From: Tetradesmus obliquus
Taxonomy: Eukaryota; Chlorophyta; Chlorophyceae; Sphaeropleales; Scenedesmaceae
Assembly: GCA_030272155.1 (NCBI GenBank)
Contig: CP126202.1
Coordinates: forward strand, 2,997,501 to 3,061,500
Direction: 5' to 3'
Length of the DNA: 64,000 nucleotides
This document shows, one piece after another, positions 179 to 59,500 of this stretch (its first letter is position 1; every line of letters begins with the position of its first letter). The translations under genes were made by a program, and so were the position numbers. The notes under the pieces were generated by a model. The model was not told the DNA's origin, did not search any database, and saw only the letters and a program-made list of their open reading frames with translations.

Positions 179-2037
179 ATGCAGAGTGCTATAATATTGA
201 GCGCTGCTCTTATGCACTGCTGTGCCCTGCGTGCTGCCACGTATGCAGATGAACTTGCTGCGCTGTGGGCCAGCCCTCTGGGGGAGGCGCAACGCCAGTC
301 GCGGCTGCTGTGCCTGGCTGCATCAGCGGGCGATGCACAGCAGGCACAGGTGAGCTGCTGGCTGCTGCGGCGGCGATAGGCCGCGGCAGTTTGCTGCATG
401 CTGACGCATGGCTGTATCACCATCATGCTGGCTTAGCATCGGGCGGCCAGGCTGACTGCTTACTGGGCCAATTTCCTGCACTTCGCTCATGCTGTGTTTG
501 CTGCGTCTGCTGCCTGCACGCCATTGTCGCTGCACACCCCACCCTGGTCCCCAGCACCGCACCAGCTGCTGCACCTCACGCCGCTTAAAACATGTTCCTT
601 GTTTCCTGCCTGCACTGGCTGCATGCAGGCCATCATTGCCGCTCACCCCAGCCTAGTTCCCAGCAGCACCATGGACCTGTCATCAGGCGGGCAGCTGCCG
701 CTGCACCTGGCAGCAGCAGCAGGCAGTGGCGAGGTGCTGGCGCTGCTGCTGGCCGCTGGGGCAGATGTGGATGCCAAGAATGGGCAAGGGGAGACGGCGC
801 TGCAGGTGAGGCTGGGTTGTAGAATGTGCTGCTGTCCTGGCAGCAACAGCGGGAGAGGTGCTGGCGCTGCTGCTGGCGGCTGGGGCGGATGTGGAGGTCA
901 AACATGGGCAAGGAGAGACAGCGCTGCAGGTGAGGCTGCTTGTAAAGGCTTCGAGTGCTGCTGTCCTGGCAGCAGCAGCAGCAGCAGCAGGCAGCGACGA
1001 GGTGCTGGCGCTGCTGCTGGCCGCTGGCGCAGACGTTGAGGCTGAAAATGGACAAGGAGAGACTGCACTGCAGGTGAGGCTGCTTGCTAAGGTTTAGGGT
1101 GCTGCTGTCTTGGCAGCAGCACCAGGCATAGGGAGGTGCTGGTGCTGGTGCTGGCGGCTGGGGCGGATGTGGACGTCAAAAATGGGGCAGGGGAAACGGC
1201 ACTGCAGATGAGGCTGCTTGTGAAGGCTTAGAGTGCTGTTGTCCTGGCAGCAGCAGCAGCAGCAGGCATAGGGGGGTGCTGGCGGCTGAAGCTGACGTGG
1301 AGGCCAAGAATGGTGGGGGCCGCTTGTGAAAGTTTGAAGTGCTGCTGTCCTGGCAGGAGCAGCAGGCGAGGTGCTGGCGCTGCTGCTTGGGCAGATGTGG
1401 AGGCGAGGAATAGGGCAGGGGAAATGGCGCTGCAGGTGAGGCTGCTTGTAGAGTGTGCTTGTGAAATATGAAAGTGCTGCTGTTCTGGCAGCAGCAGCAG
1501 CAGCAGCAGCAGGCAGTGGCGAGGTGCTGGCGCTGCTGCTGGCGGCTGGCGCTGGCGCAGAGGCGAGAAACGGAGCGGGAGAGACGGCGCTGCAGGTGGG
1601 ACTGCATGCGGCTGTCTCAGCAGCTGATAGATTAATGCAGATATCAGCTCACCCAGGCCAGGATTCATGCAGATATGAGCTCACCCAGGCCAGGATACAG
1701 AGTGATATTCTAGAAAAATATCACTGGCTGGACTGCGCTGCAGGCGAGGCTGGCTATGGGGCCCTGCTGTCCCGGCAGCTGCTGTATTGTTCACTGTGAC
1801 CTGCATGTCACACCGGCACTGGCAAGCATGGAGCGTGATGTTTCTTTCAGAAACAAGCAGTGCCGACTCTTTTCTTTTGCATCGCCTGCCCTTACACCCC
1901 TACTCTACTGGCCCTGCTGCCGCCTGCAGGTTGCGCAGCGCTGCGAGCAGTGTGACTGTGAGGCGCTGCTGCTGCAGGCTGGGGCAAAGGACAAGCAGCA
2001 GGACAGCTGGCAGGGCTTTGCTGGCGGCGAGCTGTGA
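179..2037 (+). CDS. Ankyrin-repeat protein (5' end uncertain)
   Basis: Protein-interaction scaffold of ankyrin helices; no enzymatic domain is seen. Exon A ends at 349 (LLCLAASAGDAQQAQ, then gtgagc). Exon B is 629-805 (AIIAAHPSLV...LPLHLAAAAGSGEVLALLLAAG) and ends in GETALQ with donor gtgagg. The terminal exon is 1930-2037 (VAQRCEQCDCEALLLQAGAKD..., stop TGA). All three join in phase 0 and read as consecutive ankyrin units (LHLAAA, ALLLAAGADVDAKN and ALLLQAGAKD are the hallmarks). Between exons B and the last lies an array of partial copies of exon B's 3' half, some of which may be genuine extra ankyrin exons. The first ATG used here (179) is only the first in the open frame; an alternative is an acceptor at 247-248 with more exons left of the window. 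TGTAA occurs 136 bp after the stop. Ankyrin identity is firm; exon count is not. Confidence 0.72.
806..1760 (+). repeat. Array of partial ankyrin exon copies, each ending in a donor-like site
   Basis: About seven imperfect tandem copies of the 3' half of exon 629-805 plus its donor. The CTGCAG/gt junctions fall at 805 (the real one), 929, 1073, 1207 (gt changed to at), about 1318 (decayed), 1435, 1595 and 1743 (gc donor). Spacing is 111-160 bp. Each copy starts near 'gctgtcctggcag' and encodes EVLALLLAAGADVEAK-type sequence. The distances are not multiples of 3, so simple read-through would shift frame between many copies. A degenerate copy of the 5' (acceptor) end of the exon lies at about 505-560. 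Confidence 0.85.
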
Positions 2038-2172
2038 GCTGGCCAAGTCATTGACAGAATATTGTGATAAAATGCATGCAACATGTTTTTTTTGACGACA
2101 CGTTACTGATATGTTGTGGCACTTGGAAGTTTGTTCCCAAATTCAGGTGCATGGCACAGCGCTTGCATGCCG

Positions 2173-56500: not shown

Positions 56501-59500
56501 GTGTGCTGGGCTGCGGCTGCTGCACGAAACGAGGCCTACTCGAGCGAACAGTACTCAGGTACTGTTTGCCCAGCACAACCCACCTGCATGTGCGTGCTGA
56601 TGGCAGCACAGACCTTCCTCGCTGTCCCCACCAGCTGCCCCAGCATGCCTGACACGTCACGCGTCCTGCCGCGCCGCACAAACGCGCGGACATCGGCAAG
56701 CAGCCTCCCCAGCTCCTCAAACAGCAGCACCTCGCTGCCAAGGCAAGGCCCCAATACGACCACTGCACTGCAGACATGCTGCCTATGCAAGAAAACTCAC
56801 AAGATACAGCAACACACCACTGCGCAGCCGCACCCACCTGCATGTGTGTGATGATCGCAGCACAGACCTTCCTTGCGGTCCCCACCAGCTGCCCCAGCAT
56901 GCCCGACACGCCACACCCACACCATAATCACAGCAGCCTTCACAGAAGCCCCTCAGCAACTCAACCTGAGCAGATGCTATCACGCTTGCTGCACTGCAGC
57001 TGCTGCACGATGAGACGCACACTCCAATCACATCCGGGAGCACACAGTAGCCAAAAACTGCTTTCAGCACCATCCCACACCCACCTGCATGTGTGTGCTG
57101 ATGGCAGCGCACACTTTCCTCGCAGTCCCCACCAGCTGCCCCAGCATGCCCGACACGTCACGCGTCCTGCCGCGCCGCACAAACGCGCGCACGTCAGCCA
57201 GCAGCCGCCCGAGCTCCTCAAACAGCAGCACCTCGCTGCCGTGCTCAGCCTGGCAGGTGGCGCAGGCGGCAGCAACTGATGCCAGCTGCGGGCTGGCGGC
57301 CAGGCCGCTGATGCGCAGCACCTCTGGGAACATCACCTACAGTTTGACAGGCGTGCAGGCGATCCCATAAGTCGCAGTCATGCAAGTAGCAAAGCTGATA
57401 TACGAAAAGTAAGGGGTCACATCTCCCCATTCTGAGCAGTCTCCCAGAGTTATTCCTCAAGTCCCAGCCCTGCTGCTCACCTCCTCTTCTGACAGCGTGT
57501 GGAACATGTACACGCTGCGCAGGTACCAATACAACCCAGCGCCCACAACAAACCCTATGACAACAACAAACAATCAACAATAAACCTGCAGCCCTGCTGC
57601 TCACCTCTTCTTCCGACAGCGTGTGGAACATGCACACGCTGCGCAGAAATCTGTGCCGCTCCACCAGCCCAGCCAGCTGCCCCGCACTGACCCCCGCCTG
57701 CTGCTGCAGCGCTGCCGCCTCTGCCGCAAAGACCTCCAGCGCGCCGCGGATGCTGTGGTGGAACAGCACGATGCCCTGCAAAGGCAACCAGAAGCCAAGG
57801 CGGCAAAGCCGCTCATTCAGGTGTGAAGGGAACAGCACGATGCCCTGCAAACAGCGACCAAGACAGCAACACAGTGCAAAACAGCGCAACACAGTGCAGC
57901 TGCTCATGCAAGTGACACCTGGGCATCAGGGCTGCTGCGCAACGCAGCATCACCAGGAACACATACTTGAACTTGTGTTCCAAACAAGTGTTCCGGAGTA
58001 AAAATAAGCAACGCTTGCACCCGCATGCTGCAATGCAGCAGCTGCTCTGGCAATGATCGATCGAGCTATGAGCCTCGCATGCAACACCTACAACTCACCC
58101 TCAAAGGTGGCCACTGCTCTGCTGGTGAGCCCCCAGCAGCAGCAACCTGCGCGCCGCTGCCGCTGCCAGCCGCCAGCACTGCCTGCTGCTTGCTCGGTGC
58201 CGCAAACGGGCAGATCACCAGCCGCTGCTGCTGCTGCGCTGCTCCTCCCGCTGCTGCCGCTGCAACCCCTGCCGCTGCATTGCTGCTGCTGCTGACTCCT
58301 GGCGCTGGGTTGAGCCATGTCACCAGCAGCTGCAGCAGCAGCCGATCGGGAATAACATCCCTCAGGTGCCCCATCAGCGCCTGCAGCTCTTCCTGAGGTA
58401 CCATCGGCTTGAGCCAGCTCAAAACCCTCTCCACGGTGTCAAGCGGGATGCAATACAGGAACTGAGCTACAAGCTCTGCCTGCTCTGCGTGGCTGAAGTG
58501 CTGCAGCAGCAGCGGCAGCAGCTGCGCCTCCTCTTTGGCCAGGTGCTTGCGCAGCGTGGTGTGGATCTCCTCTATCTTGCAGATGAGCTTCCTGCAAGGC
58601 CACGTGAAAGGTGTGCAGTGTGAGCAGCGAGTCATGCAGCAAGTAATGCATCACGCTCAGGCTCTGCAGTGCGGTGTGGATCTCCTCAATCTTGCAGATC
58701 AGTTTCCTGCAAGCGATGAAAGTACATGCAAGTTGCTTGAGCAGACAGACGTGCAAGCACAACAGTTGCAAGGCGTGGCGTGGCTGCATGGGGTACCAAA
58801 GTATGCTGGATGACATCAACCAACGCATGGGGCAAATCACTGCCAGCTGCACTCAACTGGCGGGTCCACCTGTCAACAGCTTGATGAAAGTGCAACTGCC
58901 AGGCTGGCAGAGCTCCTACACACCTGACTGTCGCTGCGCGTTCCGTGCCGTCCTGCTGCGCCTGGCTGCCTGCTGCTGGGCGTGCATGCCTGATGCATTA
59001 GACCGCAGCTCTGCAAATCGAAGCTACCTACTTCCCGACCTTGCCTGCTTAGAAACACGCGCCTGACTGTTGCTGCGCGCTCCGCGCCGTCCTGCCTGAC
59101 GGCCTGCTTAACCTGCATGCCTGATGCTCTTCACTGCCTGCTGCATTTCAAGTCAATGACATATGCTGGCCATTTGCGCACCTGACTGTTGCTGCGCGCT
59201 CCGCGCCGTCCTGCGCCAGCGCTGAGGCCAGCAGGCTGGCCAGGTGCTCAAACAGGTACTCCTGACAGCAGCAGCAGCAGCAGCGGCGACAGCGGAAGAA
59301 AAAGGAGAAGCGCTGCAAGATCAGGACAATTATGTGCTTGCAATGGATAGATGCTGATGCTCAATGATGATGCTTGATGCTGATGCTTGACTGCCGATGC
59401 CACGGGTGTACCTGCTGGTGTATGCGTGCTTGCAGGACATGCTGCCTGCATCCCTGTAATGATTGGGTGCACCTGCTGCACTTTACTCTGAAACAGACAA

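Follow-up and report, generated by a model that had tools for sequence, protein, structure and literature searches.

In the alga Tetradesmus obliquus, splice-junction fragments consisting of a piece of exon and its splice site are repeated one to six times in the adjoining intron of many genes. These junction arrays were found in a 64,000-nucleotide stretch of DNA (the window; contig CP126202.1, positions 2997501-3061500) and in smaller windows sampled from the same genome (104.66 Mb in 17 contigs), and in the window the observation is real. A three-step account, consisting of general local duplication, survival of products that are neutral for the messenger RNA (mRNA), and exchange confined to the exon block, is tentatively favored here (probability roughly 0.4), and would place the arrays in the class of genome-wide internal gene duplication.

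The clearest case is the gene for OEZ86_004780, a Cdh1/Fizzy-related activator according to the names of its relatives. Joining its eight functional exons (Table 1) past every copy gave a protein of 415 amino acids, which was 100% identical to the annotated one; the annotated protein uses the outer junctions only and skips all copies. In one acceptor-side pair of this gene (44116/43938), exon and copy differ by 13 synonymous and no nonsynonymous changes.

Samples and gene models

In addition to the window, 19 further 10-kb windows were taken at fixed positions (1.5 Mb of each contig, and two others), which are not random draws. Array counts refer to the window and 18 of these, the satellite-like L015 being left out; labels such as L006, L010, L015 and L016 denote sampled or fetched loci. 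A local repeat pair was defined in self-comparison by an expectation value (E) <=1e-3, a length of at least 30 bp and a distance of at most 1500 bp, and the array work covers repeat periods of 60 bp upward. Exons were taken from a home-made hidden Markov model (HMM) gene finder trained on these 254 kb of DNA, which learned the donor consensus GTGAG and the acceptor consensus TGCAG and reproduced the exons of Cdh1, the sole gene compared with an annotated protein. The gene finder labels some copies as exons too, and because of this a few arrays share copies. Exon and intron identity denote the identity of the exon part and of the intron part between functional junction and copy; unrelated introns gave a baseline of 0.507 (standard deviation, SD, 0.052).

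Extent and geometry of the arrays

The window contains 31 arrays, 19 donor-side and 12 acceptor-side, with 51 copies. These counts are slightly too high, as the pair 43434/43558 is entered once from each side (the second time as 43487/43363) and the array at 8207-9157 under two exons. A preliminary description of this DNA had reported that both donor and acceptor junctions are hit, in agreement with these figures; its estimate of about 70 copies by eye is above the 51 called here. Self-comparison of the window gave 80 local direct and 2 local inverted pairs, forming 42 clusters over 20.6% of its length, versus no local pair in eight shuffled 10-kb windows, which bears out the initial claim that pieces with splice sites are repeated in introns. 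Among 91 repeat pairs in the window, 78 were direct and no more than 2 kb apart, and 10 were far apart.

The 19 sampled windows yielded 276 local direct versus 15 inverted pairs. Local direct repeats were present in 13 of them and absent from six, including L007, which contains an ABC transporter exon, and L019, in which there are DAGAT and thiolase-like exons. Junction arrays occurred in 8 of the 18 sampled windows used, making nine loci together with the window, and are therefore not window-specific.

In total, 80 arrays were obtained with 151 functional-copy pairs (67 donor-type, 84 acceptor-type). Counting the functional copy, there were 41 arrays of two, 23 of three, six of four, five of five, four of six and one of seven. 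The outer junction was the functional one in 67 pairs of donor type and 84 of acceptor type; under looser criteria, 16 donor and 12 acceptor cases had the reverse geometry. This arrangement, seen best in Cdh1, fits the earlier proposal that only one copy per array continues as a full exon. In a few cases, e.g. L012 4466/4611, short exons carrying both splice sites were repeated.

Light-harvesting genes were looked at in 20 partly overlapping fetched loci, five of which (four genes) had any local repeat; the eight periods listed span 91-366 bp, six of them at 123-183 bp. These genes (L021-L040) seem repeat-poor in comparison with the array-rich windows, and expression level may matter.

Enrichment at junctions and repeat period

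As a control, the annotation was shifted against the repeats 300 times (L015 left out). A junction lay inside the copy in 168 of 315 pairs, versus a shifted mean of 112.5 (SD 11.9, maximum 146), and a repeat ended 2-9 bp beyond a junction in 65, versus 13.7 (SD 4.9, maximum 30). For the 109 spaced pairs of at least 88% identity, the corresponding values were 56 versus 28.6 and 35 versus 5.0. Duplications in the window and the 18 sampled windows are enriched at splice junctions relative to the shifted annotation. The high share of junctions is expected in part, because the genes are intron-dense and 36% of pairs contain a junction even in the shifted control. Block ends of spaced pairs cluster at +3 to +8 (17 of 69 donor, 20 of 71 acceptor) and are scarce in the last 50 exon bases (10 donor, 3 acceptor).

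Nearest periods in junction arrays were below 200 bp in 81 of 100 cases (mean 128.4, SD 21.3), with none at 60-89 bp, and showed no preference for a reading frame (34, 32 and 34 with remainders 0, 1 and 2 on division by three). A nearest period of 90-179 bp was shared by 84 of 115 exon-containing, 24 of 34 intron-only and 15 of 29 intergenic repeats, which were drawn from 75 kb of exon, 80 kb of intron and 88 kb of intergenic DNA, respectively. This common range indicates that the birth process looks general and not aimed at junctions; a process focused on splice junctions, as suggested earlier, need not be invoked to explain how the repeats arise. Homology extended over the whole unit in 20 of 34 intron-only and 12 of 29 intergenic repeats, but in only 33 of 115 exon-containing ones, as if the exon block had been selectively kept after birth. 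Among pairs of at least 93% identity, the alignment covers less than 0.7 of the period in 76 of 82 (L015 included), with exceptions such as the L016 array. Junction copies are probably over-represented for two reasons: the exon part stays recognizable, and duplication of a single junction would leave the spliced mRNA unchanged.

The spacer was also considered as a mobile element and rejected. When 19 spacers were compared with 2.5 kb on either side, 14 had no relative within that distance, and the matches of the other five were partly to further copies of the same exon end.

Exon blocks remain similar, introns do not

Along the aligned pairs, identity was about 0.8-0.9 over the exon part, rose to 0.98-0.99 at the junction base, fell to 0.5-0.6 at 6-9 intron bases, and was about 0.3-0.5 deeper. 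In alignments not required to contain the junction, the junction base still reached 0.85 at donors and 0.92 at acceptors, and the step did not disappear. Identity was higher in the exon part than in the intron part for 130 of the 151 functional-copy pairs and for 116 of the 126 copy-copy pairs. The two identities were uncorrelated in the former (rho 0.03, p 0.75) and weakly correlated in the latter (rho 0.26, p 0.004). For the 45 pairs with an exon identity of at least 0.95, intron identity was below 0.60 in 26, 0.60-0.75 in nine and at least 0.75 in ten.

Since 74 of 151 intron pairs lie above the 95th percentile of unrelated introns, the intron was often duplicated together with the exon. 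In the 36 pairs whose introns align at 0.75 or better, divergence was 0.125 in the exon and 0.146 in the intron. Uncoupled identities, together with similar divergence wherever introns align, cannot both be produced by a single tandem-duplication clock. Of the slippage idea proposed initially, recurrent local duplication is supported; slippage followed by decay alone does not account for the 26 of 45 exon-similar pairs with introns below 0.60. In triplets, exon block and intron named a different closest pair in 24 of 65 informative, non-independent cases (20 arrays), where two thirds would disagree if exon and intron were unrelated. In L006, the exon blocks of two copies are identical and their introns match at 0.62 (the exon is HMM-called and unvalidated). 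Alignment also showed some young whole-unit arrays in L016 and L006.

Hypermutability of introns is disfavored as a cause by the similar exon and intron divergence in alignable pairs, which are a selected set. Gene paralogues gave no usable intron clock: repeats overwhelmed the DNA search with L010, the query itself being missing from the matches, and the Cdh1 gene returned, apart from itself, mostly simple-repeat matches. The light-harvesting genes L022 and L023 match at 81-100% in five blocks with unaligned stretches in between; possible codon constraint on genes of this kind spoke against their use as a clock.

Coding constraint and splice signals of the copies

The 51 window pairs showed proportions of synonymous (pS) and nonsynonymous (pN) differences of 0.238 and 0.060, so that the slow drift with many synonymous changes described earlier is partly right. 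The pN/pS expected of a neutral copy is 0.31-0.38, as calibrated by copy-private changes (ratio 0.56). Strong selection on all copies was rejected, since the overall pN/pS of 0.30 sits near this calibrated expectation. The ratio was 0.41 (0.27-0.58) for pairs with alignable introns and 0.24 (0.17-0.36), overlapping the neutral-copy range, for those with unalignable introns, with a bootstrap probability of 0.038 for the reversed order; Cdh1 pairs alone gave 0.12 (0.05-0.72). Copy-private changes were distributed nearly evenly over the codon positions (73:65:101), and those at third positions leaned to AT (48 versus 27). Of the internal indels, 34 of 54 were not multiples of three.

Splice dinucleotides were retained in 58 of 67 donor and 73 of 84 acceptor copies, GT or AG being lost in 20 of 151. 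Among the 45 copies with an exon identity of at least 0.95, seven had lost GT or AG, above the per-base exon change of about 3%; perhaps loss of decoy sites is favored, or junctions are misplaced. The pyrimidine fraction at acceptors was 0.618 for copies whose introns are non-homologous (n = 47) and 0.616 for functional ones (n = 43), versus 0.507 at intronic CAG. This acceptor-like context disfavors the insertion of exon fragments at random intron positions, although a duplicated context would fit too. At the truncated ends of copies, partner splice sites were not in excess (AG in 15 of 43 versus 34% in random spacer, GT in 8 of 41 versus 21%), which rules against cassette exons.

Origin of the arrays

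In the favored account, a general process would produce local direct duplications with a period of about 130 bp in introns, intergenic DNA and genes, the settings in which such repeats are seen. By the logic of gene structure, donor- and acceptor-side copies would survive and exon-interior duplications would be removed; a duplication containing one junction can survive because the outer splice site in use leaves the mRNA unchanged. Recombination between copies or alleles would then act only on the still-matching exon block and the splice consensus, so that the exon block is exchanged and stays similar while the flanking introns, having no match, diverge. Junction-like cut-outs would be explained in this way without any process aimed at the splice site.

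Several points weigh against this account. The exchange step draws on decoupled exon and intron histories, such as those of the disagreeing triplets, and the number of exchange events observed directly is zero. The closest pair was the same for exon and intron in 41 of 65 triplets, so that exchange is partial at most. The edge of homology at the splice consensus is abrupt, whereas exchange alone should leave a gradual one, and the narrow period of about 130 bp is left unexplained. Third-position GC content was 0.780 in copies and 0.783 in functional exons (178 versus 169 differences), and copies contained eight stops versus 20.8 expected if all differences had arisen randomly in them. In two-copy arrays with unalignable introns, pN/pS was 0.17 (95% confidence interval 0.10-0.28, 28 pairs), below the neutral-copy range. 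Divergence in this subset was under more constraint than that of a dead copy, a hint at formerly functional junctions; copies outside it behave as drifting copies.

The constrained subset and the independent acceptor contexts are better explained by recombination between deeply diverged haplotypes, a model we consider unlikely as a whole. A break in an intron would be repaired from the other allele with invasion only in the exon, synthesis would run into the partner intron, and the end would be closed without homology. The product would carry the exon end and the start of its own intron, followed by the exon end of the other allele and its intron, so that the copies would be former functional junctions of that other allele. 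The acceptor context kept beside unrelated introns, the equal third-position GC, the low pN/pS of the two-copy arrays and the purely synonymous Cdh1 pair all agree with this, as do the size of the PacBio assembly of DOE0152z, about twice that of UTEX 393 (208 Mb versus 109 Mb; T. obliquus genome notes), and the mention of a 'haplotype' for UTEX 3031 in an excerpt of PMC7955037. However, unalignable introns also occur in pairs that differ hardly at all at synonymous sites, several with a pS of 0.0, which is unexpected for diverged alleles, multi-copy arrays with shared spacers require a second process, and the period of about 130 bp is not predicted. If this doubtful reading were correct, exon blocks would be the last recombining units wherever the introns of two haplotypes have ceased to align, and failed or one-sided exchange would drop truncated, once-functional junctions of the other allele into introns; the arrays would be recombination fossils with breakpoints set by the limits of homology, not by the splicing machinery. 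The suspicion that two diverged haplotypes, plausible for the species, were written in succession by the assembler is very improbable: some copies do diverge like functional sequence, but arrays with as many as seven junctions show graded divergence and common spacers, copies contain stops and frame-breaking indels, many contigs are affected, and the sampled windows contain no N.

Under plain recurrent tandem duplication by slippage or unequal exchange, followed by neutral decay, junction copies would dominate only as they are mRNA-neutral and their exon part is more easily recognized. This reading accounts for the direct orientation, the shared period range, the young whole-unit arrays and the ratios of 0.41 and 0.30 near the neutral-copy range. 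It is quite unlikely, and already disfavored for lack of a common clock, given the dissimilar introns of exon-similar pairs, the absence of correlation between exon and intron identity, the accumulation of block ends at the splice consensus, and the partial alignment of most highly similar pairs. Alternatively, the copies may be maintained as alternative or decoy splice sites selected for a role in splicing control, as had been suggested at the outset. The retained dinucleotides and acceptor context, the low number of stops and a minimum spacing of about 90 bp would suit such a role. Nevertheless, GT or AG is lost even in near-identical copies, most internal indels break the frame, partner sites and a frame preference are lacking, copy-private changes are near neutral, and the annotated Cdh1 protein ignores every copy; we therefore regard maintained decoys as distinctly improbable.

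Arrays and other features of the window

The arrays of the window are listed in Table 1. The units of the array at 805..1595 look ankyrin-like by eye, and some may be real exons.

Table 1. Junction arrays of the window and exons of Cdh1 (exon and intron identity refer to functional junction versus copy).
Feature	Position	Strand	Functional junction	Copies	Exon identity	Intron identity	Remarks
Donor-side array	805..1595	+	exon end 805	929, 1073, 1207, 1325, 1435, 1595	0.59-0.87	0.47-0.69	
Donor-side array	8207..9157	-	exon end 9157	8863, 8744, 8625, 8507, 8335			from alignment
Second called exon end in array 8207..9157	8207..9157	-	exon end 8857	8738, 8207			
Acceptor-side array	9712..10040	-	exon start 9712	9885, 10040	0.90, 1.00	0.82, 0.80	
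Donor-side pair	10257..10355	-	exon end 10355	10257	0.95	0.47	
Acceptor-side pair	10464..10685	-	exon start 10464	10685	1.00	0.53	53 bp identical
Donor-side array	11450..11735	-	exon end 11735	11592, 11450	0.87, 0.82	0.92, 0.50	
Acceptor-side pair	12288..12392	-	exon start 12288	12392	0.97	0.84	
Acceptor-side pair	13044..13147	-	exon start 13044	13147	0.79	0.48	Kelch-like exon
Donor-side pair	14399..14525	-	exon end 14525	14399	0.93	0.64	
Donor-side array	23289..23558	-	exon end 23558	23449, 23289	0.97, 0.87	0.58, 0.44	
Donor-side array	26992..27400	+	exon end 26992	27133, 27265, 27400	0.76-0.91	0.42-0.55	
Acceptor-side pair	27620..27727	+	exon start 27727	27620	1.00	0.52	
Donor-side pair	27846..28119	+	exon end 27846	28119	0.98	0.47 beside junction	77% intron match further along, at equal offset
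Donor-side pair	36388..36583	-	exon end 36583	36388	1.00	0.59	
Cdh1, eight functional exons	43287..47739	+					43287-43434, 44116-44255, 44479-44601, 45248-45352, 45757-45951, 46244-46486, 46877-47007, 47577-47739
Cdh1 donor-side pair	43363..43558	+	exon end 43434	43558	about 0.98-1.00	0.56-0.60	relisted as acceptor 43487/43363
Cdh1 acceptor-side pair	43938..44116	+	exon start 44116	43938		0.57	
Cdh1 donor-side array	44601..45043	+	exon end 44601	44753, 44911, 45043	0.93-0.98	0.64-1.00	
Cdh1 acceptor-side pair	45633..45757	+	exon start 45757	45633	0.98	0.45	
Cdh1 donor-side pair	47007..47148	+	exon end 47007	47148	0.93	0.51	
Cdh1 acceptor-side array	47318..47577	+	exon start 47577	47318, 47447	0.80, 0.78	0.58, 0.68	
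Donor-side pair	51165..51289	-	exon end 51289	51165	0.92	0.62	
Acceptor-side pair	52939..53070	-	exon start 52939	53070	0.77	0.51	
Donor-side pair	53578..53825	-	exon end 53825	53578	0.97	0.53	
Donor-side pair	56420..56632	-	exon end 56632	56420	0.83	0.80	
Donor-side pair	56661..57162	-	exon end 57162	56661	0.90	0.90	
Donor-side pair	57481..57605	-	exon end 57605	57481	0.93	0.55	
Acceptor-side pair	58591..58706	-	exon start 58591	58706	0.88	0.63	
Donor-side array	58924..59182	-	exon end 59182	59063, 58924	1.00, 0.91	0.49, 0.57	
Acceptor-side array	62579..62813	+	exon start 62813	62579, 62690	0.59, 0.60		weak, low-complexity, doubtful

A Pfam scan of 20 exons gave a match at E<=0.001 for ten, seven of them above the curated cut-off. 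In window exons other than those of Cdh1, RING and zinc-ribbon domains were matched, and hemerythrin (50-59 kb, minus strand) and Kelch (12.7 kb) scored below the curated cut-off. No Rfam match exceeded the gathering score. A search for relatives elsewhere found none in viral contigs and nine distant bacterial matches in genome contigs.

Three further repeats were observed in the window. A 31-bp unit is repeated seven times (95% matches) at 53085-53300, within a minus-strand gene region. At 5771-6294, a 95-bp inverted repeat (94%) surrounds an AT-rich stretch holding a 72-bp direct repeat (98.6%), an element that looks like a small non-autonomous transposon. Short repeats around GACATGCGG lie at 32083-32304 in direct and inverted order and are quasi-palindromic.

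In the sampled loci, L020:18-8738 contains the same predicted open reading frame (start MPAGGLSMVRKHPSGWK) three times at a spacing of about 3.6-4.3 kb, with no Pfam match. L015 is satellite-like: its GC content is 0.494, a single repeat cluster takes up 77% of this sampled window, and 12 local pairs are inverted. A sequence of about 73 bp at L010:3247-3336 has 96% matches at some 30 chromosomal places, as a dispersed short repeat. L009:6231-8237 carries a reverse transcriptase domain (Pfam) and a start that is endonuclease-like by eye, and is probably a non-LTR (long terminal repeat) element.

Relation to known systems and implications

The closest parallels concern duplication within genes. 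Gao and Lynch reportedly carried out genome-wide work on internal gene duplication in 2009. Such duplication resembles the arrays in being a local direct duplication of gene parts, exon and intron together, whose survival hinges on its effect on the mRNA, and the predominance of direct over inverted pairs in the window and the samples conforms to it. In contrast, homology here seldom covers the whole unit: the T. obliquus unit mostly stops at the splice consensus, forms arrays of about 130 bp period, is intronic and adds no exon. According to the AGGT model of intron gain by tandem duplication, a new intron arises from what lies between the copies, whereas T. obliquus copies lie within an existing intron and lack the excess of partner splice sites. 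The likeness to that model, as far as excerpts of PMC4974935 and PMC3443670 describe it, is that a short duplication over exon sequence places splice signals in tandem. Introners, according to an excerpt of PMC9860276, likewise involve large-scale change of intron content in unicellular eukaryotes. Introners form dispersed families, unlike the mostly neighboring, direct pairs of the window.

Intronic minisatellites share the head-to-tail repeats that expand and contract, but their conservation should be independent of exon or intron state, whereas here it drops at the splice site and the whole unit is kept in a minority of exon-containing repeats. Mutually exclusive tandem exons also consist of repeated exon sequence with splice sites; these are complete, in-frame extra exons, whereas most copies here are fragments with one splice site, and their periods are evenly spread over the three remainders. 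No recognizable description of junction arrays, for T. obliquus or any other species, was found in the open-licence literature searched. The early claim that the system is undescribed is in that respect uncontradicted, although close relatives exist in internal gene duplication and in intron gain by tandem duplication.

If the findings are confirmed, duplicates with intact-looking splice sites are remodeling gene structure in a widely grown alga, at a density of about five arrays per 10 kb in the window. The arrays would offer a natural way of testing how the spliceosome disregards strong duplicates close by, and would be a hazard for gene prediction. They may also be a source of intron growth; the mean predicted intron length is given as 462 bp for T. 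obliquus and 230-302 bp for three other Sphaeropleales in an excerpt of PMC5966456. Finally, they would show where recombination can act once introns, unlike exons, have diverged.

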